Part shown: positions 6,266 to 39,781 of the stretch, one piece after another
Position numbering within the stretch: position 1 is the first letter of the stretch
How the letters are laid out: each line of letters opens with the position of its first letter
Assembly (NCBI RefSeq): GCF_029360725.1
Contig: NZ_JARKMY010000015.1
Span: 1 to 64,000, forward strand
Source of the DNA: Chryseolinea sp. H1M3-3
GTDB taxonomy: Bacteria; Bacteroidota; Bacteroidia; Cytophagales; Cyclobacteriaceae
DNA: 64,000 nt
Reading direction: 5' to 3'
Translations under genes and position numbers: made by a program
The notes under the pieces: generated by a model
What the model saw: only the letters and a program-made list of their open reading frames with translations
What the model was told of the DNA's origin: nothing
Databases searched by the model: none

Positions 6266-6322
6266 CTTTGGTTATATAAGGCCCTGTAATCCTTTTTGTA
6301 TTTTTGTCGTTCCATAACTCGT

Positions 6323-6970
6323 ATGCAAAAACAAATAGCGGTTAGCATTGTAGAAGATCAGGAAGATATCCGTCAGGGTATGCAAAAGATTTTTAGTAAT
6401 ACGGACGGCTTTGTTTGTCGGTCGGTATTTGAAAATGCTGAAGATGCTGTATTGCAGCTGCCGTTAGATCAGCCGGATGTTGTGATCATGGACATCAATC
6501 TTCCAGGGATGACAGGCATTGAGGCTATACGACAGTTGAAATCCGCCGGATCTCCCATACAGTTTATGATGTTTACCATTTACGAAAACAGTGAACATGT
6601 ACTTAACGCCCTGGCTGCAGGCGCCAGCGGTTACTTGCTGAAGAACACACCGGCTGATAAAATACTGGAAGCAGTAAAAGAGCTGCATGAAGGAGGTTCG
6701 CCGATGAACAGTCACATTGCCAGAAAACTTGTTGTTAGTTTTCAAAAAGCACCTCCATCAAAGGAGGATGAAGCGTATAGTATTTCTGCACGCGAGAGAG
6801 AAATTCTTGAACTGTTATCCAAGGGACTTTTGTACAAAGAAATCAGTCACAAGTTGAATATCACGACGGGAACTGTTAAGCAGCACATCCATAAAATATA
6901 TGAAAAGCTGCATGTACAAAATCGCACAGAAGCTTTGTTAAAAGTTTTTGGAAGTGGGGGGAAGTCGTAG
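6323..6970 (+). CDS. NarL/FixJ-family response regulator
   Basis: A 215-residue two-component regulator. The receiver domain covers residues 1-120, with acidic residues in VEDQED, phospho-acceptor Asp57 in IMDINLPGMTG, and Lys in YLLKNTP. A C-terminal LuxR-type helix-turn-helix (about 150-212) reads ISAREREILELLSKG then LNITTGTVKQHI. ATG 6323 is preferred over an upstream TTG because it gives the normal receiver N-terminus. TATTTTTG at 6299-6306, just upstream, fits the Bacteroidota -7 element TAnnTTTG, but I find no well-spaced -33 element. It very likely receives phosphate from the kinase immediately upstream. Confidence 0.92.
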   Translation: MQKQIAVSIVEDQEDIRQGMQKIFSNTDGFVCRSVFENAEDAVLQLPLDQPDVVIMDINLPGMTGIEAIRQLKSAGSPIQFMMFTIYENSEHVLNALAAGASGYLLKNTPADKILEAVKELHEGGSPMNSHIARKLVVSFQKAPPSKEDEAYSISAREREILELLSKGLLYKEISHKLNITTGTVKQHIHKIYEKLHVQNRTEALLKVFGSGGKS

Positions 6971-7049
6971 CGGATGCGATTGGTGACGCGCTGTTTTTTG
7001 TACTCACGCAAGGGTCCAAGGCTCGCAAAGAAGGTGAAGCGTTTGGAGG

Positions 7050-7835
7050 TTATTTTGAATGACTATTTTTCCTGATGTATTCTGTTGCTTCTTTAAAAGG
7101 AGTTACCCAGATTTCTTTCTCGTGTTGTTTCAGATAAACTAAAAGTTCACGATGGGCTTGTAGAGAAACGTTCAGATTATGTTCGCCGCCGACACCATGA
7201 AAAAGAAAAACCAAGAGCGCATTTTCACTCATGGCTTTCTTTACTAAAGCTATCAATTGCTCGCCAGTTTCACCATTGATTCCATAGGATGGAACATTAT
7301 ATAAATCAACATTATTAAGCTGCACCATCTCACTCTTCACACCTCTGGCTGACACAAAATCGTTTTTTATCTGATCAATGTAGGACTCATCTCCTACTTT
7401 AGTATCACCACATGGATAGGCAAAAGTTCGTTTCTTCTTTCCATCCAGTGATTCAAGAAATGTATTGGTCATGCGAACTTCATCCAGTAAACGTTGCATC
7501 GTATATGTGCTGAGATCATAATCGGGTTTTACCCAGCTACGGCCGGGCATGTTGCCTGCACATGGATGAAACAAAGTATGATTGGCCAGTTCATGCCCGT
7601 TTCTTGCAGCGGTGGTCCAATCTTTAAGACGATTCCGACTCCCCGGAAAATATCCCGAAAGGTAAAATGTAGCGTCAAAATTCAGCGAGTCCAACAAGGG
7701 TATGGCGTTATCGAGATGAACATTCAAAGCATCGTCATAGGTAAGCACTACGGCACATTGTTTTCCATTCCAAGACTTTTTATTTTGAGCATAACAACAT
7801 GATGCAAGCAGCATCAGGACAATCGTCAATCGCAT
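7050..7835 (-). CDS. secreted polysaccharide deacetylase (NodB domain)
   Basis: A 261-residue protein starting at MRLTIVLMLLASCCYAQ, a clear signal peptide; the longer frame upstream of it is not needed. The NodB fold carries the metal-binding Asp pair in LTYDDAL (Asp34, Asp35) and the HxxxH motif as HTLFH (His86, His90). FAYPCGD is a further conserved strand, and the segment FLFHGVGG closes the active site. Such carbohydrate esterase family 4 enzymes remove N- or O-acetyl groups from polysaccharides. The middle residue of the usual TFDDG motif is Tyr, a frequent variant. It is monocistronic and not obviously tied to the SusCD locus beyond the terminator at 7975-8008. Confidence 0.88.
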   Translation of the reverse strand: MRLTIVLMLLASCCYAQNKKSWNGKQCAVVLTYDDALNVHLDNAIPLLDSLNFDATFYLSGYFPGSRNRLKDWTTAARNGHELANHTLFHPCAGNMPGRSWVKPDYDLSTYTMQRLLDEVRMTNTFLESLDGKKKRTFAYPCGDTKVGDESYIDQIKNDFVSARGVKSEMVQLNNVDLYNVPSYGINGETGEQLIALVKKAMSENALLVFLFHGVGGEHNLNVSLQAHRELLVYLKQHEKEIWVTPFKEATEYIRKNSHSK

Positions 7836-7974
7836 CGCAGAAAAGGTTAAGGAAGTAAATTTAGAAAAAGATAACTCACAACTGATGTGATCAAATAAGA
7901 TTATCACGTGGAGTTGCATTCATCTTAATCCAATTGAGATAATTTTGGTAAGCCCGCGGTAACGCTCGTGCCAA

Positions 7975-8008
7975 AATAAAAGCCGGTCATATCGGGCCGG
8001 CTTTTATT
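7975..8008 (-). terminator. intrinsic terminator of the susCD transcript
   Basis: A perfect 12-bp stem (AATAAAAGCCGG at 7975-7986 with CCGGCTTTTATT at 7997-8008) encloses a ten-base loop. On the minus strand the stem runs into a U-rich stretch. It lies 22 bases past the SusD stop codon, so it should end the leftward SusC/SusD transcript and separate it from the deacetylase gene. Confidence 0.85.
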
Positions 8009-8030
8009 TCTTAATAAATAAGTTTCCCAC

Positions 8031-9539
8031 CTAATAACCCGGGTTGGGTATGATGTTTGGATTTACGTTTGTTTCACTGTTAGGAATCGGGAAGTAAAGG
8101 TTTTTTTTCTCAAACCCCATGGCATTCGGACGATCTGAACTGAAGAAACCATCGTCAAGTGTAATCTTTTCTCCCAGCGCCCATCGCCTAAGATCAAACC
8201 AGCGTTGACCCTCTCCTGCTAATTCCAATAAGCGCTCGTCCATTATCCACTGACGAATTATTTCTCTGTCTGTTTCTGTACTTGGTCTGTCCGCAGGCAC
8301 CGTGCCGGCACCTCGCGCCCGTTCGCGAACCAAATTGATTTGTGCAATGGCATCAGCTGTGGATCCGCCAGATTCATTCAGTGCCTCGGCTTTTAGCAGT
8401 AGCACATCTGCATACCTCAAGATGCGGGGATTATTGACTGAACTTGATCCACCTTGATTCAACTCATCACGGGTAACATATTTTTTAAACGCACGGGTAT
8501 CAGGATCAAGGGAGAGCTCCTTGCGTGGATCCGTATCGTCGAAAAGGTCAGCCAATTTTTGTGTCGCCACAAAAGGAGATTTTCCAAACAAATTAAATTG
8601 GTCACTATAATATCCCCAAAATACAGACAGCGCGCCGACGGCATTATCGAAGTCATTGTTAAGCCAGATATTGTCATCGCCGAAAGCACGCGTCGCCTGA
8701 TACTCAAATAAAGACTCCTCATTATTTTCTGTATCGGCAGCGAAGTTATCATCAAAGGCTGGTACCAACGATGCACCACTAATGTTATCAAACGCTGTTA
8801 TCGCCGCCTGATAATCCGCGGGGGAATTTGTGATTGTACCTTTGAAGACCAGACATTTTCCAAGCAAACCATAAGCGCTGTTTTTTGTAACCCTTCCGCG
8901 TTGCGCCTCAGCCCAGGAGGTTGGAAGCAACGTTGCAGCTTCCGTAAGGTCCAGAATAGCCTGATCCAGCAGTTGCGTACCGGTAGAGCTAGGCGGTTTT
9001 GTATCATTCAGATTATCCACCCGCGCGGTAACCAGGGGCGCCGTTCCAAAGATATTCCACAGCAAATAGTAACCATAGGCACGTAGAAACAATGCTTCTC
9101 CGCGATGGTAATCCTTTAGCCCTGGGGTAACATAAACGCCATCTTCCACTTCAGCATTCTTGTCCATTACGACAATTGCGCGATTAATTAATTGATAAGC
9201 TGTTGAGAAAAAATCTGCCAGCCGTTGTGTGCCTGTCTGTATACCTGAAAAAGTTTCAAAAGCGTCTTGCCCATTGGTGGTGATATCGTCACCGGGAAGT
9301 AATGTAACCGGCTGCAAACAAGCATCGGCACTTCGGTTGTACCAATAGAAATCTGTGAGCTTCGCGTAAATACCGGTAACAGCACGTTCAAATTCAACCT
9401 CTTGTTTGAAGTACGAGTCCTCGGTTTGCGACTGTGGTGCAACATCAAGCCGGGACTCATCGCACGCATTGTATCCGATTAAGACCAGAAACATCGTTAA
9501 TGATATTAGTTTATTGTTAGATCTCATAGTTGTATCCAT
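8031..9539 (-). CDS. SusD/RagB-family nutrient-binding outer-membrane lipoprotein
   Basis: A 502-residue glycan-binding lipoprotein that caps the SusC-type channel at the cell surface. The N-terminus is a lipoprotein signal with Cys in IGYNACDES. Diagnostic SusD features follow: DSYFKQEVEFERAVTGIY (TPR-like start), GEALFLRAYGYYLLWNIFG, RVTKNSAYGLLGKCLVFKG, and the C-terminal RYADVLLLKAEALNESGG then DERLLELAGEGQRWFDLRRW. ATG 9539 and an in-frame ATG four codons later are both possible starts. It lies nine bases downstream of the SusC gene. The ligand is not evident, but the neighbouring sugar-catabolic genes suggest an oligosaccharide or glycoside. Confidence 0.95.
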   Translation of the reverse strand: MDTTMRSNNKLISLTMFLVLIGYNACDESRLDVAPQSQTEDSYFKQEVEFERAVTGIYAKLTDFYWYNRSADACLQPVTLLPGDDITTNGQDAFETFSGIQTGTQRLADFFSTAYQLINRAIVVMDKNAEVEDGVYVTPGLKDYHRGEALFLRAYGYYLLWNIFGTAPLVTARVDNLNDTKPPSSTGTQLLDQAILDLTEAATLLPTSWAEAQRGRVTKNSAYGLLGKCLVFKGTITNSPADYQAAITAFDNISGASLVPAFDDNFAADTENNEESLFEYQATRAFGDDNIWLNNDFDNAVGALSVFWGYYSDQFNLFGKSPFVATQKLADLFDDTDPRKELSLDPDTRAFKKYVTRDELNQGGSSSVNNPRILRYADVLLLKAEALNESGGSTADAIAQINLVRERARGAGTVPADRPSTETDREIIRQWIMDERLLELAGEGQRWFDLRRWALGEKITLDDGFFSSDRPNAMGFEKKNLYFPIPNSETNVNPNIIPNPGY

Positions 9540-9548
9540 TTGTCTTTT

Positions 9549-12500
9549 TTAGAAGGATGCATTCAGTCCAAACATCAACTGTTGTGTCGGCGGATTAAAA
9601 TCATTTTCAGGATCAATCCCTTTCCAGTTTGTAATGGTGAAAAGATTGGTTGCTGAAACATATACCCTGACCCGATCAATAGCTCCTGATTTCGGCAGCA
9701 TCGACGGTGGTAACGTATACCCTAGTTGTACATTCTTCAAGCGGATAAAGTTTGCATCCTCCACAAACCTGTCCGACGTTCGGTTATTGGCATTAGGATC
9801 GTTTCGCACAGCGCGTGGCATTGTAGTGGAAGGATTTTCAACTGTCCAGCGGCCGTTGGTGGTTGCCCATTGATTGGCACCATTGCTACCCATGTTTTCG
9901 CCCTGTGCCCTTGCCCCGTTATATTTTTGAACATCTCCTACGCCTTGGAAAAACAACGATATGTCTATGCCTTTATAGGCCAGACCCAGGTTGAAACCAT
10001 AATAAAATCCGGGAATTGTCTTACCAAGGTAAACGCGGTCGTTATCGTTTATAACGCTGTCGGGCACGGGGTTAAAGACCTGGCCAGGACCAGGCGATCC
10101 GTTGATATCAAGGAAACGAACATCACCGGGTTGTTGCTGATCTTCGCTGTTATTATCGCTATAAACGTCTTTCCAGTCATCCACTTCCTGTGCGGTCTGG
10201 AAAATTCTATCCGTCTTGAACCCCCACAAGTATCCGATCGGATATCCTTCTTGTACGCGTCCCAACGTGTTGTCATCTATTTCCGATGCTTCTTCTCCAA
10301 AGGGGGTTCCCTGATACAATTTGACGACACGATTTTTAACGGTAGTGAGATTTCCCGATACGTTAAATGACAAGTCACCGATGTTATTGTTATAACCCAA
10401 CTGGATCTCTACACCACTGTTCCGGACATTCCCTACATTCAGATCGGCCGGGTCACGAATACCGGCGTTGGGTGGAAGGTTCACTTGTTGAATAATTCCT
10501 TTTGTAAATCGGTTGTAGTATTCAGCAGTTAATGAAACGCGGGATCCAAAAAAAACAGCATCAAATCCAACGTTAGTAGTTCGCACCCGTTCCCAGGTCA
10601 GTTCGAAATTAGGGAAGTTAGGGAGTACCGCCCCAATGGTCTGAAGCCCGAAAGGATCGCCATTACCTGAGCCATAGGAATAGTCGGGGGTTGTACTGAT
10701 GGTGGACAAGTATGCAAATCCTTGGGTGGTTTCTTTGTTGCCTAGTTCGCCCCATCCTCCCCTTATTTTTAAATCATCAATGAACGTTGCTTCTAAATTC
10801 TGAAAGAATTGTTCGGAACTGATTCTCCACCCGGCAGCAAAGGAAGGAAATACTCCAACGCGGTAACCTGGCGCGAATACAGAAGATGCGTCGCGTCGTA
10901 CCGTTGCATCCAGATAGTATTTGTCTTTGAACTTATAGCTTACACGTGCCAGGTATCCCTGCAGTACTTGTGTTCTCCGGCCAGTAAACGAAGAAACGTA
11001 AGGAGGCCTGTTTTCAACGGAACGCAATGCAGGATCTATCGAATTTACCTGCGTGCTGGAGGCATCTGTATACGACCATGTTTGTCTTTGGTCCATGGCA
11101 CTTAACAACAGGTCCACATTATGGTCGCCAAAGGATTTATTGTAGTTGACTGTTAATTCTTTGATCAAATTAAAATTCCGACTCTGACGTTCACCATAAC
11201 TTCCCTTCGATGTACCATCGTTTCCGGTATATCGGTTGCTTGGCGTTTGAAAGAAGACGTAAGAATCATAATTGACCCAGGTCTTTCTCAGGTTGTTGTA
11301 ATAATCGCCGCTAACGGATCCTCTAACTTTGAGGCCAGGAATTGGCTCAACCTGTAGATAAACGTTCCCTAACGTTCTAAAGAATGTATAGTTTTGAAGA
11401 TTCAAATCCTGGACAGCAAATACGTTTCCTCGGGTTGCCTCCCCATACAAATACCTCGGATCACCATCAAAGTTATACAGCGGCCCCGAATTAAGGTTAG
11501 ACGGATCGAAGTCGTCATTTAGGACATAGTTGATAACCGTGGACGGCGCATAGCCAGATGGATGCGATGGATCATAAATAGGCTGCCATGGTGGAGCGGT
11601 GGCAACATAGGCAAGATCGTTATCTGTATTATCCAGCGCATTGTTGTGAGACAGTTTCAAATTGACTCCTACTTCCAGGAATTTTGAGATTTTGCTGGTT
11701 AAATTTGTAGCTAACGAATACCGCTCGAGGCTACTTTCAATCAATGCGCCTTCTGTTCTTCCATACCCGGCAGAAACATAATAGGTCGTTGCATCACTTC
11801 CTCCGCCTACACGGATGCTATAGTCTTCGACGACAGCATTTTTGTTAATAAGATTGTCTTGCCAATTATACGTCGGGCTATTTCCAAGATAAGCGGGATC
11901 GCTTTCAATAAATTCAGACGGCAAATTACCTGCCTCGCTTGGGTTATTGTTATACGCCTCTTGATACAGCCTCGTGTAATCCGTTGTGTTAAGCATATCA
12001 AATTGCTTGATCACATTTTGTACACCTCTTTGTGCGCTGAATTCAACTTTAGGGCTACCGGACTTACCTTTTTTTGTGGTGATCAGGATCACCCCGTTGG
12101 AAGCTCTAACACCATAAATAGCCGCAGCAGATGCATCCTTCAATACAGAAATTGATTCGATATCATTAGGATTAATCGACGACATGATGCTGATGGGGGA
12201 GCGAATATCCTGATCGCCGGGGAATGGACTGCTCGCACCGCCTTCCAGCACCGGAATGCCATCAATAACATATAGCGGTTCTGCAAATCCAAATGTAGCT
12301 ACACCTCTGATTCTCACATTAGGTCTCGCAAAAGGATCGCCACTTGGTGTTGTTACCAAGACGCCTGCCATGCGGCCTTGCATTGCAAGTTCTGGATTCA
12401 TGGCAGTGCTCCGTGTGATTTCTTCACTGCTAACACTCGAAATGGCACCAGTTACATCTTTTCGTTCACGCTCGCCATATCCTATCACAACAACCTCCGA

Positions 12501-12803
12501 CAATTGTTGCGTTGAAGACGCCATCGTTATATTGATGGACGTCTGCGTTCCGACGCTGATGTCTTGCGTCTCAAATCCGATAAAAGAAAATGTAAGCACA
12601 TCTTCATTACCTGCTGTAATGGAAAAACTTCCATCCGAACCCGTTGCCGTACCTACGGTCGTACCTTTGACCAGCACAGATACGCCAGGCAACGCTGAGC
12701 CATCACTAGCGTCTACTACCTTTCCGGTAATAGTTCTTTGTTGCGCACTGACATTCCCTATCAGCATCAGGCAACACCAACTAAAAAGTAAAATATGTTT
12801 CAT
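9549..12803 (-). CDS. SusC/RagA-family TonB-dependent outer-membrane transporter
   Basis: A 1084-residue outer-membrane importer. Residues 1-20 are a signal peptide (IGNVSAQ). They are followed by a carboxypeptidase-like beta-sandwich (TITGKVVDASDGSALPGVSV, about 22-105) and the plug domain (LSEVVVIGYGERERKDVTGA, then NPNDIESISVLKDASAAAIY). The 22-strand barrel ends with NLFTITNWKGIDPENDF and a terminal Phe. It pairs with the SusD lipoprotein downstream to import a ligand using TonB energy. No ECF sigma or anti-sigma pair adjoins it, so control probably comes from the DeoR regulator of the locus or an upstream promoter in 12804-12998. Confidence 0.95.
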   Translation of the reverse strand: MKHILLFSWCCLMLIGNVSAQQRTITGKVVDASDGSALPGVSVLVKGTTVGTATGSDGSFSITAGNEDVLTFSFIGFETQDISVGTQTSINITMASSTQQLSEVVVIGYGERERKDVTGAISSVSSEEITRSTAMNPELAMQGRMAGVLVTTPSGDPFARPNVRIRGVATFGFAEPLYVIDGIPVLEGGASSPFPGDQDIRSPISIMSSINPNDIESISVLKDASAAAIYGVRASNGVILITTKKGKSGSPKVEFSAQRGVQNVIKQFDMLNTTDYTRLYQEAYNNNPSEAGNLPSEFIESDPAYLGNSPTYNWQDNLINKNAVVEDYSIRVGGGSDATTYYVSAGYGRTEGALIESSLERYSLATNLTSKISKFLEVGVNLKLSHNNALDNTDNDLAYVATAPPWQPIYDPSHPSGYAPSTVINYVLNDDFDPSNLNSGPLYNFDGDPRYLYGEATRGNVFAVQDLNLQNYTFFRTLGNVYLQVEPIPGLKVRGSVSGDYYNNLRKTWVNYDSYVFFQTPSNRYTGNDGTSKGSYGERQSRNFNLIKELTVNYNKSFGDHNVDLLLSAMDQRQTWSYTDASSTQVNSIDPALRSVENRPPYVSSFTGRRTQVLQGYLARVSYKFKDKYYLDATVRRDASSVFAPGYRVGVFPSFAAGWRISSEQFFQNLEATFIDDLKIRGGWGELGNKETTQGFAYLSTISTTPDYSYGSGNGDPFGLQTIGAVLPNFPNFELTWERVRTTNVGFDAVFFGSRVSLTAEYYNRFTKGIIQQVNLPPNAGIRDPADLNVGNVRNSGVEIQLGYNNNIGDLSFNVSGNLTTVKNRVVKLYQGTPFGEEASEIDDNTLGRVQEGYPIGYLWGFKTDRIFQTAQEVDDWKDVYSDNNSEDQQQPGDVRFLDINGSPGPGQVFNPVPDSVINDNDRVYLGKTIPGFYYGFNLGLAYKGIDISLFFQGVGDVQKYNGARAQGENMGSNGANQWATTNGRWTVENPSTTMPRAVRNDPNANNRTSDRFVEDANFIRLKNVQLGYTLPPSMLPKSGAIDRVRVYVSATNLFTITNWKGIDPENDFNPPTQQLMFGLNASF

Positions 12804-12960
12804 ATCAAGCAGCTTTCTTTTTTTTCGTAAGACATTGTTATTTTTTTAATAAATGAATTGTCACCACCTCGAATTTCTCATAGTGCTTCGTTTTTTAGAT
12901 ACGTAAATTGATCTTCAAACGCATTGCGTTCGACGCTGAGGTCAAACCAATGCTCCCTTA

Positions 12961-12985
12961 AATGGTTCGTGGAAAATGAACCATT
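12961..12985 (-). terminator. possible hairpin after the symporter gene
   Basis: An 8-bp stem (AATGGTTC at 12961-12968 with GAACCATT at 12978-12985) lies 14 bases past the stop codon of the leftward symporter gene. There is no clear U-run after it, so it may only weaken read-through into susC or stabilise the upstream mRNA end. Confidence 0.35.
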
Positions 12986-12998
12986 GCCGATGACAAAA

Positions 12999-14600
12999 CT
13001 AGCCAGCCGTATTGCCTACCAGGCTGGCATATAGCAGAACGTATATAACAACCATCCCAATAGCCCAGAACGAAACCCGCTTGTACCAAGGGTATCCATT
13101 TGGAAAAAGGGACGACGGTAATTGCGTCATTGAAAATTTCCAGACAGCCTCGTCTCTCGCACCGGAGACTTCGGCATCTGATTTTGTAGCCACGCTTACC
13201 ACCCAGCAGAAAAAGGTGGTAAAAATTAATACCAGGGCCGCTACATGATATACATTCGTAGAAATGTTGGCGAGCCTCAGTACATACGGGAGTAACAACA
13301 TTGGAAACGAAAGGCACAACGTAACCCATGCAGCTTTTGCTGTTACCCCTTTCCATAAAATTCCCATTACGAAAATCACCGCCGCCGGAATTGCAATAAA
13401 TGCCCAGCATTCCTGGAAGTAGGAAAAAATGTAGTCGAACCTTGCAACGACAGGTGCCCACAATGCTCCTATCGTTAACGTCATAAGACTTCCCAACCTG
13501 CCAATAGCAATCAGTTTCTTCTGATCCGTTTCCGGAAAATGTTTCTGATAAATATCGAGTGTAAGTATCGTAGAGGATGCGTTTACCAACGCTTCGATGG
13601 CGGTAATCGTACCACCACACAACACGGCGAAAAATAGTCCTCGCGCGCCAGCGGGGACCAACGTATTGACCAGGTAAATATATGACTCATCCGGACGTTC
13701 CAGGTTTGGATTTAAAGCATATGCTATCATTCCAGGAAAAACATCGGCCACCGCTACAAACAGGCTAAGAAAACCTACCATCAAAACACCCATTTTCGCA
13801 TGCCACTCATTGCGCGCGCCCAATGAAGATTGGTTAATCGATTGATTCGTGCAAAAGAACCACACGTTGGTGGAAACCATCAACACAAACAAACCGGTTC
13901 CCGGAAGATCAGGATGCGACGAAGGCAATAGCAACTGTGATCGTTCGCCGCTTCCTATAATCTGCGCCCAGCCACCAGGTAGCGCGTACCATCCTAAAAT
14001 AAAAATCAAAACTCCGGACAGCAGCAATAAAACGGATTGTAAAACATTGGTCCATGCGACTGATTCCATACCACCGTAAATGGTAAAAACCCCGGCAATG
14101 ACAGCGAGCGACCATATTCCTACACCGATGTTGATACCAAAAATTGCGTGCAAAGCAAAGGCACCCGAATAAATGACGCCTGCCAGGTTTATAAAAATGT
14201 ATGTAAGCAAGGTGATGTAAGCAAACAGACGTTGTGTAGCCCGATCGTATCGCAGACCCAGGAACTGCGGCATGGTGACAATTTTTTTTCTGATGTAGAA
14301 TGGAACGAAAATGAATACCAGTAATAGGATCGCGAACCCGTTGAGCCACTCCCAGTTCGCTACTGCTAATCCATAACGATAAGAAAATCCTACAGAGCCA
14401 ATCAACTGCTGCGCACTGACTGTAGCTGCGATAAAAGAGAAACCGATGATGTACCAGGGCAATGCTTTATTGGTGATAAAGAATTCAGCCGCAGTTACTT
14501 TTTTCTTCCTCCCACCCCATAGGCCAATCAATATCATGGCCGAAATGTAAACGCCGAACACAACGAGATCGATGGATGAAAGTGATGTCATGCTTCCCAA
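12999..14600 (-). CDS. sodium:solute symporter (SSS/SGLT family)
   Basis: A 533-residue inner-membrane transporter with about 13-14 hydrophobic helices, the usual length for the family. It begins IDLVVFGVYISAMILIGLWGG. The SSS signature region includes GFSFIAATVSAQQLIGSVGFSYRYG and the TM5 segment FTIYGGMESVAWTNVLQS, both typical of SGLT-like sugar carriers. It overlaps the upstream kinase gene by 13 bases, so both are co-translated in one operon. By context it brings the monosaccharide released outside or in the periplasm into the cytoplasm for the kinase and aldolase. Confidence 0.92.
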   Translation of the reverse strand: MGSMTSLSSIDLVVFGVYISAMILIGLWGGRKKKVTAAEFFITNKALPWYIIGFSFIAATVSAQQLIGSVGFSYRYGLAVANWEWLNGFAILLLVFIFVPFYIRKKIVTMPQFLGLRYDRATQRLFAYITLLTYIFINLAGVIYSGAFALHAIFGINIGVGIWSLAVIAGVFTIYGGMESVAWTNVLQSVLLLLSGVLIFILGWYALPGGWAQIIGSGERSQLLLPSSHPDLPGTGLFVLMVSTNVWFFCTNQSINQSSLGARNEWHAKMGVLMVGFLSLFVAVADVFPGMIAYALNPNLERPDESYIYLVNTLVPAGARGLFFAVLCGGTITAIEALVNASSTILTLDIYQKHFPETDQKKLIAIGRLGSLMTLTIGALWAPVVARFDYIFSYFQECWAFIAIPAAVIFVMGILWKGVTAKAAWVTLCLSFPMLLLPYVLRLANISTNVYHVAALVLIFTTFFCWVVSVATKSDAEVSGARDEAVWKFSMTQLPSSLFPNGYPWYKRVSFWAIGMVVIYVLLYASLVGNTAG

Positions 14601-20726: not shown

Positions 20727-21551
20727 ATGAAGCAATTCAGACTTAATCGACTTTTCAATCCCATTTCAGGCAAATGTTTTGATGTCGCAATTGACCATGG
20801 CTTCTTTGGCGAAAGCTCCTTTCTTCAAGGTATTGAAAACATTGAAGAGGCGATCGATATTGTAGTGGCGGCAAACCCCGACGCTATTCAACTCACGGTC
20901 GGGCAGGCCCACTATCTCCAATCAATAAAAGGGAAGCAAAAACCCTCCTTGGTGCTTCGTACGGACACTGCAAATGTTTACGGAAGCAAATTATTTCCGA
21001 CGTCGTACAGTCTGGTTATCGGCCATGCTGTTGAACAAGCCGTAAGGCTGGATGCGGCATGCATTTGTGTGAACTTGTTTCGAATTCCCGGAGCGCCTGA
21101 AGTAACAGAGTCATGTATCAGGAATATTCTTGCCCTCTTGCCAGAAAGTGAGCGGTATGGAATGCCGCTAATGGTTGAACCGCTGGTTTTCAAATCCAAT
21201 GAAGTAGCCGGTGGCTATACCGTTGACGGAGACTTATCCAAAATAATTCCGCTGGTGAGACAGGCTGTCGAGCTCGGTGCTGATATTATAAAAGCCGATC
21301 CGACGGATAACACCGAAGAATATTATAAGGTCGTCGAGATTGCCGGAAAAATTCCCGTGCTAGTCAGAGGGGGTGGGCGTGCCACGGATGAACAAATATT
21401 GCTACGTACACAACGCCTGATGGCTCAAGGTATTGCCGGGATAGTTTACGGTAGAAACATCATCCAGCATCCGAGTCCAGCGGCGATTACGAGAAAACTA
21501 ATGGAGATCGTCCATTTTAATGATCAGCTTACGAAAATTAATACACGATGA
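20727..21551 (+). CDS. DhnA/LsrF-type class I aldolase, copy 2
   Basis: A 274-residue paralog of the aldolase at 16150-16962, on the other arm of the same locus. It shares the LNRLF start, the AIDHG motif (Asp23-His24), Lys189 in ELGADIIKADPTDN as probable Schiff-base residue, and GIAGIVYGRNIIQHP as phosphate loop. ATG 20727 gives the family N-terminus; an earlier TTG at 20688 only adds unrelated residues. Its stop overlaps the start of the next gene (ATGA). Divergence between the copies, for example KADPTDN against KTFYTND after the Lys, suggests different substrates or sequential cleavages rather than redundancy. Confidence 0.83.
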   Translation: MKQFRLNRLFNPISGKCFDVAIDHGFFGESSFLQGIENIEEAIDIVVAANPDAIQLTVGQAHYLQSIKGKQKPSLVLRTDTANVYGSKLFPTSYSLVIGHAVEQAVRLDAACICVNLFRIPGAPEVTESCIRNILALLPESERYGMPLMVEPLVFKSNEVAGGYTVDGDLSKIIPLVRQAVELGADIIKADPTDNTEEYYKVVEIAGKIPVLVRGGGRATDEQILLRTQRLMAQGIAGIVYGRNIIQHPSPAAITRKLMEIVHFNDQLTKINTR

Positions 21552-23212
21552 AACGAATATTCTTAATGTTGGTATTGTGCAGTGCAGTGTACACGGTTTC
21601 CTCGCAGGACAAGAAACTTTCACTTGACTCATTAGGTGCTTACAAAATCATTAAAGATAAGTCCGGGAAGATTCTTCCGTGGTTTAAGCCTGAAGTACCT
21701 GGCGCTGCATACGCACATGTGTGTAAGCTCGCAAGCGAATTTATTAAGACGGGCACCCCGATTGAACCACGTACAGGTCTACCGTTGTACCTTGTTACAT
21801 GTTGTTTTGAAGGTCCTCACTTAAAGGGGCAGCAAGCTTTTGATGCTGGAAAAACCGGCGAAGACTGGATGCATAATCCCGCCATGACCTACGCAGGCAT
21901 GGTTCATAGCCTGGTAATGGGCTATCGTGTTTTCTCTGGGGATGAATCGTACGTTAAAATTGTGAAAGATATGCTCGACTATCAGTTGAAGCATGGCACC
22001 ACTGAGAAAGGCTGGATATGGCCTCAGGTTCCCTACGCAAGCAGCAATCCGTTCAACAAGGAATATTATGGCGCGACGCGTTGGGAGAACGATGGCATGC
22101 GTGGGGATGGACTTCATGGCATAGAGCCCGATAAAGTAGGTGAACTTGGATATGCCTATTTGCTTTTTTATGAAGTTACAATGGACACGACATACCTAAA
22201 TGCAGCAATACATTGTGCTGACGCATTGGCAACAAATATTCGCGACATTGAAAAAATAGATGCTGGTGAACCTATCACCGATAAATCACCGTGGCCCTTC
22301 CGGATCAATGCAAGGAATGGAAAAATCATTGATGAGTTCTGCTCAAATGTAGTTGAACCTGCTAAGTTGTTTGAGGAATTACTTCGCATCCGCCCTACCA
22401 TTGCAGTTACGAACGAACAAGTCAAGTCATGGACGAGGGCGAGGGATATGGCCTGGCACTGGCTGTATTCTAAAGGCGGCCCCATGAAAACTTATATCTG
22501 GAACGCCTACTTCGAAGATGTTCCCAGTGATCCCCGGCAAGCCAACAGAAATCAGGTTACGCCAATGGAAACAGCGCGCCACATCTTGCGCAATCCCCAT
22601 CTTGATGCCGACATTGACAGGACAATTCCTGCGCTGCTCCATTGGGTAGAATCAGCATTTGGAACGGAAGGTATGGATGCCATTAAAGAACAAACCTGGT
22701 GTTATGAACCGATGGGAAGTCATACGGCAAGGTTTGCAAGTATTTGCGCGCTCTGGTACGAACGCACTGGTGATGTAAGGTTCAAAGAAAAGGCATATCG
22801 GTATTTTAACAATGCAACCTACAGCACAGATCAGAACGGCGTTGTGCGTGTAGGTCCCACGTGGCCAAGCAGTTGGTTTAGCGACGGATACAGCGATTAC
22901 ATCCGCCATTTCTTAGACGGTTATGCAGCCGTGCCGGAATGGGTGCCGTTAGATCAGGATCACGTTCTTCGTTCTTCATCTGCCATCCAAAAAATTAGCT
23001 ATTCCAACAGTTCGATACAAATGAAAACGCATGACAACAAAGGTCACCTAACCGTCCGGATGAATGCTAAACCAAAGTCGATCTCCATCGGAAATAATAA
23101 GCTGGTCGAGAAAAAAACGTCCGACAATGCGTGGTCATGGACCGCTATGGAAAAAGGCGGACTATTGAAAATCAATTATTCAAATGGAAACGAGATCACG
23201 GTCTCAAAATGA
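21548..23212 (+). CDS. secreted protein, probable (alpha/alpha)-toroid carbohydrate-active enzyme
   Basis: A 554-residue exported protein with signal peptide (MKRIFLMLVLCSAVYTVSSQ). The body is rich in aromatic and helical segments of the kind found in (alpha/alpha)6 toroid enzymes such as glycoside hydrolases and N-acylglucosamine epimerases: WMHNPAMTYAGMVHSLVMGY, RWENDGMRGDGLHGIEPDKV, and a late WCYEPMGSHTARFASICALW. A small beta-rich tail (about 480-554) follows. I do not recognise a named family from motifs alone, and I cannot point to catalytic residues. It is translationally coupled to the second aldolase gene and precedes the dimethylformamidase-like lipoprotein, so it probably acts on the imported glycoside in the periplasm. 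Confidence 0.6.
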   Translation: MKRIFLMLVLCSAVYTVSSQDKKLSLDSLGAYKIIKDKSGKILPWFKPEVPGAAYAHVCKLASEFIKTGTPIEPRTGLPLYLVTCCFEGPHLKGQQAFDAGKTGEDWMHNPAMTYAGMVHSLVMGYRVFSGDESYVKIVKDMLDYQLKHGTTEKGWIWPQVPYASSNPFNKEYYGATRWENDGMRGDGLHGIEPDKVGELGYAYLLFYEVTMDTTYLNAAIHCADALATNIRDIEKIDAGEPITDKSPWPFRINARNGKIIDEFCSNVVEPAKLFEELLRIRPTIAVTNEQVKSWTRARDMAWHWLYSKGGPMKTYIWNAYFEDVPSDPRQANRNQVTPMETARHILRNPHLDADIDRTIPALLHWVESAFGTEGMDAIKEQTWCYEPMGSHTARFASICALWYERTGDVRFKEKAYRYFNNATYSTDQNGVVRVGPTWPSSWFSDGYSDYIRHFLDGYAAVPEWVPLDQDHVLRSSSAIQKISYSNSSIQMKTHDNKGHLTVRMNAKPKSISIGNNKLVEKKTSDNAWSWTAMEKGGLLKINYSNGNEITVSK

Positions 23213-36453: not shown

Positions 36454-37851
36454 ATGGAGACTCCATATGAAGTGATCTATAAAAAGATTTGGGATCTATC
36501 GCCAAACTTTCACATTCCGGATTCCTACCACAACCTGAACCTGTTAACCCAGGAGTTAATCCACATATACGATTCACAGGGAAGAATCGGGCAAGATCCT
36601 TTTGCCTCGACACGTGAGCGAGAGCTTAGCCAACCTTTTCATAAAATTAATGCGCTGTTAAAGGGTAGTGTTTGTCTCGTTACTGGCGGACTTGGTTGCG
36701 TAGGTTCAAACCTTGTTAATGAATTGGTAAAGTTTGACGTTGCTAGGATCATAGTTTTGGATAAGAACGACAACACACCTTATCACATTGAATCCGACCA
36801 TTCGGTTACTGTTGTTCATGGCGATATCCGCGATGCAGAAACTGTGCATGATACTTTCACTGCATACAAACCTGACTTTGTCTTTCATACCGCCGCACAA
36901 CGCGACCCTGGGTATGCAGAATCGCATATAGCGGAAACTGTCACAACCAACGTAATTGGTACACTCAACATCGTAAAAGCTTGCGAATATACGGGCTCCG
37001 TCCGGCAATGTGTGTTTTCGTCAACGGGAAAAGCAAGCCGTTATTTCACGGAGGAAGTATACGCCGGGACTAAAAAAATGTGCGAGTACGTTCTTGACCT
37101 GTATGCGCGGGAAGGGCGTGTTAAATATAGCATGGTAAGATTTACACACATGCTCGATAACAGCTTGATGAATGAAGAACTTAAACGAGCTAGTGAATGC
37201 GATAAATATGTCAGAGTTCATAGCCCAGGGAAGTATGTGACCGCTCAAAATAAAAAGGAAGCTGCTAGTCTACTGTTGAACGCATTACTATACGCTTCAC
37301 CCGATCAATGCAATTTTTTACTGGTAAAAAATCTTGAATGGCCGGTTGAAAGCCTGGAGGTAGCGTTGTATTATATAAAAAAATCATGCAGGAATATTCC
37401 GGTTGTCTTCATCGGTAATCCATTGGGATACACTGAAAAATTTTTTAGGGGACAGATGGATTGGTCTGATCCAAGCGAACTCAACCTGCTTATCAATGTC
37501 TACGAAAATAAATCGCGTACGGTTAACAGTGAGGGCGACATTGTTATATCTCACATCTGCCCGAGTTCAAAGGTTGTGATCGAAAAAGCACTTTGCCGAA
37601 TCGAACGCGCATCAGGTGAAAAAGAATCAAAAGAGATGCTTGTCCAGGGTTTGAAAGAAATGGTAAGAGATGCGTTAACGAAGGTCAATAAAAAAGACAC
37701 TGTTGACATCCTTAATTGGGGACTACAACAAAAATACCTTGATATTGAAAAAGCAAAAGTTTCTGATTATGGCGCCATCATTCCAATGCTATTTGAATCG
37801 CTTGAGGGTACAGTATATTATAACCAGGTGGAGAAGTTAAAAGGAAGCTAA
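36454..37851 (+). CDS. NAD-dependent epimerase/dehydratase (SDR, CapD-like) heading the JAMM-Ubl operon
   Basis: A 465-residue extended short-chain dehydrogenase. After an N-terminal extension of about 65 residues the Rossmann motif is VTGGLGCVGSNLV. Then come LDKNDNTP, GDIRDAET, the active-site Ser in VFSSTGKAS, and the YxxxK pair in VYAGTKKM. It most resembles nucleotide-sugar 4,6-dehydratases or epimerases of the CapD/FlaA1 group. A C-terminal helical segment of about 110 residues is not recognised. The next gene starts 26 bases later. An SDR in front of a JAMM/Ubl/E1 set is unusual and may define the substrate that the set modifies. Confidence 0.85.
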   Translation: METPYEVIYKKIWDLSPNFHIPDSYHNLNLLTQELIHIYDSQGRIGQDPFASTRERELSQPFHKINALLKGSVCLVTGGLGCVGSNLVNELVKFDVARIIVLDKNDNTPYHIESDHSVTVVHGDIRDAETVHDTFTAYKPDFVFHTAAQRDPGYAESHIAETVTTNVIGTLNIVKACEYTGSVRQCVFSSTGKASRYFTEEVYAGTKKMCEYVLDLYAREGRVKYSMVRFTHMLDNSLMNEELKRASECDKYVRVHSPGKYVTAQNKKEAASLLLNALLYASPDQCNFLLVKNLEWPVESLEVALYYIKKSCRNIPVVFIGNPLGYTEKFFRGQMDWSDPSELNLLINVYENKSRTVNSEGDIVISHICPSSKVVIEKALCRIERASGEKESKEMLVQGLKEMVRDALTKVNKKDTVDILNWGLQQKYLDIEKAKVSDYGAIIPMLFESLEGTVYYNQVEKLKGS

Positions 37852-37877
37852 TCGGATACCTTTTTGAAGGATGAAAC

Positions 37878-38360
37878 ATGAGTCAAAATAAATTGATATT
37901 ATTTCTCGATCGTGCCATAATTGAACAACTTGAAAGTGCTGCGGCGTATAACACCGACGAAGTTTGTGGCTTCTTGCTTGGCCATGAAGATAAATTTGTG
38001 CGAACGATCACAAGAATAATACCTGTAGACAACATTGCCGCTGATAAAAAAGATGCTTTCCAAATAGCTTCAAAAGATTATTTAAAGGCCGAACGTTTTG
38101 CAGATGTAAACAATCTCCAATTATTGGGAGTTTATCATTCACACCCCAACTGTCCGGCTATCCCTTCTGAGCAAGACCGGCTGGCCGCCCAGCCATATTT
38201 TTCGTATTTGATTCTTTCTGTCACCGATAAGAAGGTAACTTCAATTCGCTCGTGGAGCCTGAACGACTCCTTCCAATTCGATGAAGATTTTTTAATGAGT
38301 ACTAACAATATCAATCAACATATTAATGGCTACCGTAATTATCCCAACACCGCTGCGTAA
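37878..38360 (+). CDS. JAMM/MPN+ metallopeptidase (M67 family)
   Basis: A 160-residue stand-alone JAMM peptidase. The catalytic Glu is Glu28 in DEVCGFLLG, and the zinc motif reads GVYHSHPNCPAIPSEQD with His87, His89, Ser97 and Asp100 in the required spacing. Bacterial homologs (Mec+, QbsD type) trim or release ubiquitin-like sulfur carriers. The gene overlaps the Ubl gene by 35 bases, strongly suggesting coupled synthesis. The next gene encodes a Ubl with four residues after Gly-Gly, which is exactly the kind of tail such a peptidase would remove. Confidence 0.92.
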   Translation: MSQNKLILFLDRAIIEQLESAAAYNTDEVCGFLLGHEDKFVRTITRIIPVDNIAADKKDAFQIASKDYLKAERFADVNNLQLLGVYHSHPNCPAIPSEQDRLAAQPYFSYLILSVTDKKVTSIRSWSLNDSFQFDEDFLMSTNNINQHINGYRNYPNTAA

Positions 38361-38610
38361 ATTCACAAACAACAATTCCAAACTTGCTATCCAGGCTTCA
38401 TCAATTTCAGAAATGATCCATCACCTGACAAATGATTTTCCCGAGTTGAAAAAACATTTACTGGATGCAAACGGTAAAGTCCCCTCGTTCATTAATATCT
38501 TTGTAGACGATGACGACATACGGAACTTACAGCAGGAGCAAACCGTAATTAAAGAGAACAGCACTGTCAGCATTGTTCCTGCGATTGCCGGCGGTGCTTA
38601 TAGGATTTGA
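38326..38610 (+). CDS. MoaD/ThiS/CysO-like ubiquitin-fold sulfur carrier with masked C-terminus
   Basis: A 94-residue beta-grasp protein starting MATVIIPTPLRKFTNNN, ending AIAGGAYRI. The Gly89-Gly90 pair that would be adenylated by the E1 is followed by Ala-Tyr-Arg-Ile. In mature MoaD, ThiS and CysO the di-glycine is terminal, so this protein must be cut before use; QbsE-type carriers are the known precedent. The gene overlaps the JAMM gene and ends ten bases before the E1 gene. It probably carries sulfur as a thiocarboxylate for cofactor, amino acid or natural-product assembly. Confidence 0.9.
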   Translation: MATVIIPTPLRKFTNNNSKLAIQASSISEMIHHLTNDFPELKKHLLDANGKVPSFINIFVDDDDIRNLQQEQTVIKENSTVSIVPAIAGGAYRI

Positions 38611-38620
38611 CTTTATTAGT

Positions 38621-39781
38621 ATGAACCACGAAAATATTCAATTTTCAAAAGAGGAGCTTGCCCGGTATAACCGTCATATCATTATTAAGGAATTCGGACT
38701 CGATGCTCAGAAAAAATTAAAAGCTGCCAAAGTACTCGTTATTGGTTCAGGTGGCTTGGGAAGCCCGGTATTGCTGTATCTTGCAGCGGCTGGCGTCGGT
38801 ACCATTGGTATTGTTGACTTTGATGTAGTAGATGACAGCAACCTGCAACGGCAAGTTTTGTTCGGTGTCCACGACGTTGGGAAATCAAAAGCTGAAGCAG
38901 CCCGGCAACGTCTTCAATCCTTGAATCCATTTATTAACATTGAGGTACACAACGTACAATTCACATCCAAAAATGCATTGGAGCTCATTAAAAAGTATGA
39001 TGTCGTAGCTGATGGAACGGATAACTTCCCAACACGATATCTGGTTAACGACGCCTGTGTGTTGTTGAACAAGCCCAACGTCTACGCTTCCATTTTTCAA
39101 TTTGAAGGACAGGTTTCAGTTTTTAATTATCGAAACAGCAAAGGTGAATTGGGACCGAACTATCGTGATTTATATGCTACTCCTCCCCCTCCGGGGCTTG
39201 TACCCAGCTGTGCAGAAGGCGGCGTGCTGGGTGTTCTTCCCGGAATCATTGGAAGCTTACAGGCCCTTGAAGTGATCAAAGTAATCACAGGGGTCGGCGA
39301 AATTTTGAGCGGTCGGTTTTATATTTTTGATGCACTAAATTTCGAATCAAGAACATTCAACCTGAAACGGAATCCCAACAATCCATTAAACGGTGTGAAT
39401 CCTACCATAAAAGAACTTATCGACTACGAAGAATTTTGCAGCGTAAAAACAGTAGAAAGGGCTATAAAAGAAATATCGGTCAAAGAACTTTATGATTGGC
39501 AAGTGCGGGGGGAAGATTTCCAATTGATTGATGTGCGCGAGCCTCACGAATATGACATTGTTAACCTTGGCGCAGAACTTATTCCGCTGGGTGTTGTGTC
39601 AAAGCATGCGGAGAAAATTGATAGAACGAAAAAAGTTGTTATTCACTGCAAGACCGGCGGCAGAAGCGCCAAAGCTATTCGGGAACTGGAAGATAAATTT
39701 GGATTCACCAATCTATACAATCTTAAGGCGGGTATTTTTGGATGGATTGACGAGGTAGATCCGGAATTAACGAAGTATTAA
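38621..39781 (+). CDS. ThiF/MoeB-type E1-like adenylyltransferase with C-terminal rhodanese domain
   Basis: A 386-residue fusion starting at ATG 38621. The E1 part has the ATP loop GSGGLGSP (42-49), DFDVVDDSNLQRQVLF, and DGTDNFPTRYLVND; Cys197 lies in VPSCAEGGVLG. The first zinc CxxC of E. coli MoeB is replaced by NYRD (180-183), a variant I recall from other Bacteroidota. Residues 285-386 are a rhodanese with Cys343 in loop CKTGGR, as in human MOCS3. It would adenylate the exposed Gly-Gly of the Ubl and transfer sulfur from its persulfide. It is the last gene of the operon. Confidence 0.92.
   Translation: MNHENIQFSKEELARYNRHIIIKEFGLDAQKKLKAAKVLVIGSGGLGSPVLLYLAAAGVGTIGIVDFDVVDDSNLQRQVLFGVHDVGKSKAEAARQRLQSLNPFINIEVHNVQFTSKNALELIKKYDVVADGTDNFPTRYLVNDACVLLNKPNVYASIFQFEGQVSVFNYRNSKGELGPNYRDLYATPPPPGLVPSCAEGGVLGVLPGIIGSLQALEVIKVITGVGEILSGRFYIFDALNFESRTFNLKRNPNNPLNGVNPTIKELIDYEEFCSVKTVERAIKEISVKELYDWQVRGEDFQLIDVREPHEYDIVNLGAELIPLGVVSKHAEKIDRTKKVVIHCKTGGRSAKAIRELEDKFGFTNLYNLKAGIFGWIDEVDPELTKY

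Follow-up and report, generated by a model that had tools for sequence, protein, structure and literature searches.

A predicted CysO-type sulfur-carrier operon headed by a nucleotide-sugar short-chain dehydrogenase/reductase in Chryseolinea and its relatives

The window analyzed in this study is a stretch of 64,000 nucleotides (positions 1 to 64,000) of contig NZ_JARKMY010000015.1 from Chryseolinea sp. H1M3-3, a genome of 6.9 Mb. Its open reading frames (ORFs) include four co-directional genes on the + strand, at 36454-39781, that encode a short-chain dehydrogenase/reductase (SDR), a JAMM metallopeptidase, a ubiquitin-like protein (Ubl) and an E1-like protein with a rhodanese domain. The JAMM and Ubl genes overlap by 35 bp, and the remaining gaps in the operon are 26 and 10 bp. 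An earlier note, made from the letters of the window alone, had described four packed genes of this kind with a Ubl ending in GG-AYRI. This description is borne out by the ORFs, by the Pfam scores (those of all four gene products exceed the curated cut-offs) and by the recurrence of the set at 20 loci. A start of the E1 gene at TTG 38573, as given in the ORF list, was dropped since comparison with relatives gives no support for it. The genes and their main features are as follows, with fractions referring to aligned proteins from the SDR-headed loci.

36454..37851, + strand: SDR head gene, extended nucleotide-sugar type, 465 amino acids (aa); PF02719, 98 bits
36685..36705, + strand: Rossmann motif GGLGCVG of the SDR, residues 78-84; G78, G79, G81 and G84 in 18/18
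37024..37032, + strand: active-site triplet Thr191-Gly192-Lys193 (TGK) of the SDR, 18/18; TDK in PglF (PglF/WlaL alignment)
37060..37074, + strand: YxxxK motif of the SDR, Tyr203 to Lys207; 18/18 aligned rows
37878..38360, + strand: JAMM/MPN+ metallopeptidase, 160 aa; PF14464, 72.8 bits
38136..38177, + strand: JAMM motif HSHPNCPAIPSEQD (His87, His89, Ser97, Asp100), pattern HxH-x7-S-x2-D; complete in 19/19 JAMMs
38326..38610, + strand: CysO-like ubiquitin-like sulfur carrier (Ubl), 94 aa, ending in PAIAGG-AYRI; PF02597, 41.8 bits
38596..38607, + strand: tail AYRI, four residues past the Gly-Gly of the Ubl, read from the sequence
38621..39781, + strand: E1-like adenylyltransferase with C-terminal rhodanese, MoeZ/UBA4 type, 386 aa from ATG 38621
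38666-39382, + strand: ThiF domain of the E1; PF00899, 269.8 bits
about 39479-39751, + strand: rhodanese domain of the E1; PF00581, 43.7 bits

Full-length orthologues of the SDR were found in 8/148 genomes of the same family, the genome of the window counted. The other seven share 45-76% identity, and the next match has an E-value of only 5.7e-21. In a class draw of 395 genomes, the SDR was recovered at E <= 1e-40 in the window's own genome only. A pattern scan in which each of 84,980 species was represented by a single genome yielded 18 SDR loci, found in Chryseolinea, Cyclobacterium, Cecembia, Algoriphagus, Lunatimonas, Pleomorphovibrio, further Cyclobacteriaceae, Pedobacter and Arcticibacter. 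Together with the window and genome G114 this amounts to at least 20 loci, and the SDR is, judged by sequence, a distinct and rare family. All 20 loci (two of them, L052 and L055, truncated by contig ends) share the order SDR, Ubl, E1, with the JAMM gene between SDR and Ubl in 19/20; chance adjacency of the SDR is ruled out by this recurrence. The single locus without a JAMM gene in the operon is L051 of genome G138. This genome carries a second JAMM-Ubl pair on contig C84 (8995-9702), adjoining RmlC-DRL and SDRb-RfbF genes, and no SDR or E1 stands next to that pair in the stretch read. The closest relative with a name that was found for the window's genome is a Chryseolinea metagenome-assembled genome (locus L039). 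Differences between the two at codon positions 1, 2 and 3 number 93, 57 and 266 in the SDR, 13, 8 and 49 in the Ubl, and 48, 21 and 229 in the E1; the third-position excess is weaker in the JAMM gene (56, 37 and 95).

The wider relatives of the Ubl define the background of the operon. A Ubl profile matched 51/395 phylum genomes at E <= 1e-3 and 43/148 family genomes at E <= 1e-8. The non-SDR loci around strong Ubl matches encode a cysteine synthase (CysM) in 47/61 cases and the SDR in 0/61. These counts cover 45 regions of the phylum draw, which held 46 non-SDR genomes with a Ubl at E < 1e-22 (the omitted region, L086 of G468, reads CysM-JAMM-Ubl-E1), and 16 of the 18 non-SDR genomes of the family draw with a Ubl at E < 1e-30 (G046 and G090 were left out, as were second Ubl copies and weaker matches of E 1e-8 to 1e-16). 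Seven weaker Ubl loci (L133-L139) show no JAMM, CysM or E1 and were also left out. Within the same family, CysM is found at 14/16 non-SDR loci, the remaining two being truncated by contig ends. The 14/61 loci tallied as having no CysM in the stretch read include two truncated by contig ends (L198 and L203) and one, L108, where CysM is present according to the flank scan; at L098 and L101 that scan shows no CysM. The best NCBIfam names of three CysM genes checked are cysM/cysKM, at 280-292 bits and under the cut-offs of those models. CysM lies upstream and co-directional in 44 of the 47 CysM loci. In the other three (L112, L119, L126) JAMM and CysM are separate genes, and opposite them lies the gene of a Ubl::E1 fusion. 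At six further loci (L101, L111, L114, L120, L122, L123) the fusion is alone locally, and PF14464 matches occur elsewhere in all six genomes.

The scan for CysM covered the window and the fetched flanks at 19 SDR loci and found none, in agreement with the absence of a cysteine synthase stated in the earlier note. Of the eight SDR genomes of the family draw, seven hold one such Ubl and G138 holds two, neither with CysM, so that no CysM-type module would exist alongside the SDR set. The E1 tree places all 20 SDR-type E1s, together with two CysM-type E1s from another family, in a single clade (support 100/100). The branching order inside this clade leaves room for one origin of the SDR type as well as for several. 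According to the earlier note, a cysteine synthase next to the same set in most relatives, with no SDR, would make the operon ordinary CysO-type biosynthesis. This holds for the wider relatives and speaks for a CysO origin, while the shared E1 clade of the 20 SDR-type loci speaks against the ordinary pathway. CysM in most wider relatives and the shared clade together point to a CysO-type module with an exchanged acceptor enzyme. Thus, by gene content and phylogeny, JAMM-Ubl-E1 is a CysO-type module in which CysM at the head was replaced by the SDR. The operon is predicted to be something other than either a system without relatives or plain synthesis of cysteine.

The nearest solved sequences to the Ubl are 4n6e_B, presumably the carrier of the BexX complex, and 3dwg_C, which we take to be CysO. 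Those nearest to the JAMM protein are 2kks, 2kcq and JAMM1 (5lda), and the top solved match of the E1 is UBA4. The Ubl end PAIAGG is conserved in 15/15 sequences. Nine SDR loci have a gene of its own for the Ubl, with a tail of 2-6 residues past Gly-Gly in eight of them (the ninth, L041, has none). At the other 11 the Ubl forms the N-terminal part of a fusion with the E1, with PAIAGG at the junction in nine aligned fusions. The tails vary among relatives (APSTKA, KPVSKL, KI, NLI, NYKGE, LYKDR). Since a tailed or fused Ubl should not be adenylatable as it stands, a cut after Gly-Gly would be needed at 19/20 SDR loci, in line with the processing before adenylation proposed in the earlier note. 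The Ubl was also described there as masked. Masking by a tail was given up as a special feature of the operon since tails are frequent at CysM loci as well: of the 47 Ubls at these loci, 29 are tailed, 10 are fused, six end at Gly-Gly and two are unread. Cleavage at Gly-Gly is also required in the fused MoaD-MoaE protein MoaX, for which the protease was not identified (PMC4326299). At the SDR loci, the JAMM protein is the obvious candidate for the protease that cuts the Ubl after Gly-Gly.

The SDR carries additional segments of about 65 residues at its N-terminus and about 90 at its C-terminus. Its AlphaFold2 model is of good quality (mean predicted local distance difference test score, pLDDT, 88.8; predicted TM score, pTM, 0.88), with residues 327-342 mostly below 50. 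The closest solved fold is the 4,6-dehydratase PglF (5bjw_A, E 1.3e-17; TM 0.82 by target length, 0.61 by query length), which is also the nearest solved structure by sequence profile. The extended SDR fold with GxxGxxG and YxxxK expected of a 4,6-dehydratase is present, and the Rossmann glycines, Thr191, Lys193, Tyr203 and Lys207 are invariant in the 18 aligned SDRs. An acidic residue following strand 2 is an indicator of NAD+; here it is Asp103 in 17 sequences and Glu in one, which suggests NAD+ as cofactor. The acid/base pair [ST]D[KE] of 4,6-dehydratases is not present in any of the 18 SDRs: where PglF has its catalytic Asp, all of them have Gly192. A table of fingerprints in PMC8987622 gives [ST]DK or [ST]DE for 4,6-dehydratases, [ST]SE for the GDP-mannose type, TCE for TunA and [ST]MG for UDP-sulfoquinovose synthase, and has no entry for TGK. 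Assignment of the SDR as an equivalog of UDP-sulfoquinovose synthase, GalE or PseB was rejected, the scores lying far under the NCBIfam cut-offs. A sulfur-adding role of the SDR is plausible, but the missing acid could equally well point to a reaction with no elimination.

A second operon accompanies the SDR set. Genes from the set RfbF (glucose-1-phosphate cytidylyltransferase), SDRb, RmlC and DRL (PF21135) occur within the fetched flanks at 9/20 SDR loci. At L056, RfbF scores 434.9 bits (cut-off 300.25) and RmlC 176.5 bits (cut-off 155.75). At L041, eight co-directional genes form one run with gaps of +35, -4, -4, +15, -14, -44 and +24. In the window's genome (contig C16, L191) and in G015 (L192) the four-gene sugar operon lies away from the SDR set, and it was found elsewhere in 6/6 further searchable SDR genomes without adjacency. 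In total, DRL is present in 17/19 tested SDR genomes (the genome of L045 being outside the count) and the full four-gene operon in 16/19. L049 has only DRL and RmlC in its flanks, the stretch covered there for RfbF and SDRb, and L033 has only SDRb and RmlC. In the family draw, DRL at E < 1e-200 occurs in 6/8 SDR-positive and 1/140 SDR-negative genomes (Fisher 1.5e-8). The same type of DRL is found in a second family, that of a Pedobacter genome, in 3/3 SDR-positive and 5/198 SDR-negative genomes (4.2e-5). SDR and DRL go together within genera g1 (two genomes with both, two with neither) and g18 (two with both, one with neither). SDRb of the sugar-operon type was found at 0 of the 10 loci read (L227-L236) among 17 SDR-negative genomes of the family with a distant DRL. 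At both sugar-operon loci scanned with Pfam the surroundings consist of polysaccharide genes. In the window's genome they encode glycosyltransferases, WecG/TagA among them, and a sugar-1-phosphate transferase (PF02397); in Arcticibacter, a Wzz-type protein and one for export. The sugar-type product that the earlier note had considered is favoured by this partner operon. DRL may belong to either of two families of DXR-II-like oxidoreductases, DLO1 and DLO2; both are described as uncharacterised (PMC3847144).

Some sugar operons deviate from the common organization. In L033 (G114), RmlC is separated from the SDR by ORFs that resemble transposase genes by eye, at 10566-13125 (5877-8436 on its reverse strand); in the related operon of G053 their place is occupied by DRL, which was not found in G114. 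In L046 (7941-9235, Cyclobacterium qasimii) DRL is represented by two ORFs, which may reflect a disrupted gene or a fault in the assembly. RfbF-SDRb-RmlC-DRL without the SDR cassette is found at L245-L249 and L194, with an extra ORF inside at L246 and a C-methyltransferase-like gene (by eye) close to the operon at L248 and L249.

The sequences themselves document which genes and motifs are present, that the head gene was exchanged, that the set co-occurs with the sugar operon and, at the loci examined, that this operon has a polysaccharide setting. The relay that we propose from them would proceed in five steps. First, the JAMM protein would cleave after Gly-Gly, removing the tail in the window or releasing the Ubl from the E1 fusion in relatives. 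Second, the E1 half would adenylate the C-terminus of the Ubl and the rhodanese half would provide the sulfur, giving the Ubl thiocarboxylate (Ubl-COSH). Third, the SDR with bound NAD+ would oxidize a nucleoside diphosphate (NDP)-sugar, probably the CDP-sugar of the RfbF-SDRb-RmlC-DRL operon, to an electrophile, most simply a 4-keto-5,6-ene. Fourth, Ubl-COSH would add to this electrophilic sugar, in analogy to the sulfite addition proposed for UDP-sulfoquinovose synthase; in the parent CysO system, Ubl-COSH adds to the aminoacrylate made by CysM, which a 4-keto-5,6-ene from a dehydratase-type SDR would resemble in reactivity. Fifth, hydrolysis, perhaps by the JAMM protein, would set the Ubl free and yield a thiosugar nucleotide destined for surface polysaccharide. 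The first two steps are predicted from the families concerned; the last three, and the choice of the sulfurated carbon, are hypothetical. That a sugar is the sulfur acceptor and the SDR the acceptor enzyme, on a relocated CysO-type relay, has in our judgement about an even chance of being correct, and the precise chemistry of the transfer is less secure than that.

Several points weigh against this explanation. The Ubl of L041 ends at Gly-Gly, yet its operon keeps the JAMM gene; as the JAMM is likewise retained at the six CysM loci with such Ubls, tail removal is perhaps not its sole job. The model of the fused Ubl::E1 is poor (pTM 0.57), so that the pLDDT below 50 of residues 85-99 and 101-115 near the junction carries little weight. 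The contrast in DRL within the family draw is smaller when all DRL at E <= 1e-60 are counted (6/8 against 18/140; 2.3e-4). The comparison of the close type is partly circular, since half of the six SDR loci behind the DRL profile come from genomes among the 6/8, and all Fisher values ignore kinship. No close DRL was found in G114 and G031 (L054), whereas the other SDR genome of each genus has one; genera g53 and g31 each contain one genome with SDR and DRL and one with the SDR alone. G016, which has a CysM-type module elsewhere in the genome, and five genomes of the second family possess the sugar operon but not the SDR set. The sugar operon therefore does not depend on the SDR set, and a co-occurrence that is one-sided in this way fits a tailoring step added onto an existing sugar pathway. 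Gly192 takes the place of the Asp that is the acid of usual 4,6-dehydratases, so that there may be no C6 elimination and the 5,6-ene step may be wrong. With the UDP-sulfoquinovose synthase model NF041015 the SDR reaches a mere 29.7 bits against a cut-off of 575. The transfer of sulfur to the sugar is itself inferred, and the E1 of the window's genome may mainly, or also, serve MoaD.

The last point leads to a general-use sulfur relay, for cysteine or molybdenum cofactor (MoCo), in which the SDR would be a co-transcribed polysaccharide passenger and the E1 would activate MoaD in the manner of mycobacterial MoeZR. PF00899 has no match in the window's genome other than the E1 of the operon, and contig C12 (L087, 6445-8468) carries MoaA, a ThiS/MoaD-family gene and MoaE with no E1 match, and MoeZR sulfurates MoaD as well as CysO (PMC3227635). 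However, 6/8 SDR genomes of the family draw hold another full-length E1 (the window's genome and G015 do not), and the SDR locus has no MoaE-partnered carrier, MoaE being on contig C12. Furthermore, a passenger SDR is expected neither in the CysM slot at 20/20 loci nor tied to a sugar operon, which leaves this explanation unlikely.

In a decidedly unlikely explanation, the SDR would catalyse a plain epimerization or dehydration in the sugar pathway, and Ubl-COSH would hand its sulfur to another enzyme of that pathway (e.g., DRL or SDRb) or to an acceptor other than a sugar. RmlC-type enzymes as a rule act on 4-ketosugars, and no 4,6-dehydratase was recognized in the sugar operon despite its RmlC-type enzyme, although no systematic search was made; SDRb was considered for this role and rejected, as its SSCSxYG ... 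YAxSK reads epimerase-like by eye. The JAMM and Ubl genes that adjoin RmlC and DRL without an SDR in G138 would also fit a different acceptor enzyme. Against this, the Ubl operon is headed by the SDR at 20/20 loci, and the enzymes of the four-gene sugar operon seem independent of the SDR cassette, since the operon occurs in six SDR-negative genomes (the Ubl search covered one of the six, G016, where it met the CysM-type module).

Conjugation of the Ubl to proteins in the manner of SAMP or Urm1, possibly to the SDR or polysaccharide enzymes, with the JAMM protein removing it, is very doubtful. The best NCBIfam names of the Ubl and the JAMM protein, SAMP1 (45.3 bits, cut-off 60) and desampylase (66.9 bits, cut-off 130), lean that way while staying under the cut-offs, as does UBA4 as top solved E1, but the top solved Ubls are the two sulfur carriers named above, the sister operons hold a cysteine synthase, and neither the four operon genes nor four scanned neighbours gave an E2-like match. 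An anti-phage or E2-type conjugation system was rejected because the PADLOC matches are to generic E1/JAB proteins (the E1-E2 matches, among the best 25 of 33, fall inside residues 5-164 of the E1, its adenylation part) and no E2 is among the scanned proteins.

The four neighbours scanned with Pfam encode a SASA esterase, a NUDIX protein, a cNMP-binding regulator and a BD-FAE hydrolase, and are not obviously connected with the operon. Elsewhere in the window, an ORF of 554 aa (21548-23212) has no Pfam match at E <= 1e-5.

Sulfur-carrier modules serve thiamine, MoCo, cysteine, methionine, tRNA and some natural products, and to our knowledge BexX is the only known case of carrier-based delivery of sulfur to a sugar. 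If a sugar is indeed the acceptor in the SDR operon, cysteine synthase and SDR would be exchangeable sources of the electrophile for the same sulfur-delivery module. One operon backbone with two alternative head enzymes in one bacterial family makes the idea that the head chooses the acceptor directly testable. We consider it possible, but would sooner bet against it, that the operon represents a new class of C-S bond formation in which a dedicated Ubl thiocarboxylate attacks an SDR-made keto/ene nucleotide sugar, giving an undescribed thiosugar of surface polysaccharides in Cytophagales and Sphingobacteriales. Cecembia rubra, Cyclobacterium, Arcticibacter and Pedobacter are the strains in which a sulfur-containing polysaccharide sugar could be sought, and with the natural Ubl::E1 fusions JAMM cleavage after Gly-Gly would be readable on a gel. 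A literature search at title and abstract level, with most subscription journals outside it, returned no description of an SDR-headed JAMM-Ubl-E1 operon.

Among known systems, the PglF/CapD-type UDP-GlcNAc 4,6-dehydratases are nearest to the head enzyme in fold and sequence, but have Asp where the SDR of the operon, with its extra ends, has Gly. UDP-sulfoquinovose synthase (SQD1, Agl3) is an NAD+-bound SDR for which a 4-keto-5,6-ene and a sulfur nucleophile have been proposed (PMC4388408) and which does without the usual acid/base pair (PMC8987622, Table 1). It is an extended SDR like that of the operon, but uses [ST]MG and sulfite instead of TGK and the proposed thiocarboxylate. Tailed Ubls processed by JAMM proteins are familiar from QbsE/QbsD and HcyS/HcyD, in quinolobactin and homocysteine synthesis, respectively. 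The core for pyridine dithiocarboxylate (PDTC) and quinolobactin consists of Ubl, JAMM and E1-rhodanese plus a carboxylate-AMP ligase (PMC1779556, section 12); the first three are shared with the SDR operon, whereas the ligase has no counterpart in it.

BexX reportedly makes a 2-thiosugar (BE-7585A) with a borrowed sulfur carrier, in work attributed to Sasaki et al. in 2014. As in the proposal for the SDR operon, whose Ubl has 4n6e_B as its top match in the PDB, the carrier thiocarboxylate is the sulfur donor of the sugar. BexX itself is a thiazole synthase homologue that uses glucose 6-phosphate and carriers from primary metabolism. The SDR operon differs in having an extended SDR at the head, a link to CDP-sugar genes and its relay in the same operon, and the ThiG family, to which a BexX-type head would belong, is not among the Pfam matches of its four genes. 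The BexX case shows that such carriers can sulfurate sugars (PMC4784017).

The closest system remains CysO-CysM-Mec+-MoeZ. The CysM-headed loci correspond to operon type 4c in Table 1 of Iyer, Burroughs and Aravind 2006 (PMC1779556), in the main text of which the word ‘sugar’ does not occur. The JAMM, the CysO-like Ubl, the E1-rhodanese, the gene order and the tails and fusions are common to both systems, and the window has the Gly-Gly Ubl, the complete JAMM motif and the E1 with rhodanese of a CysO operon, but not its CysM. The head of the CysO system is a pyridoxal phosphate-dependent cysteine synthase, whereas at all 20 SDR loci an SDR of nucleotide-sugar type is found there instead.

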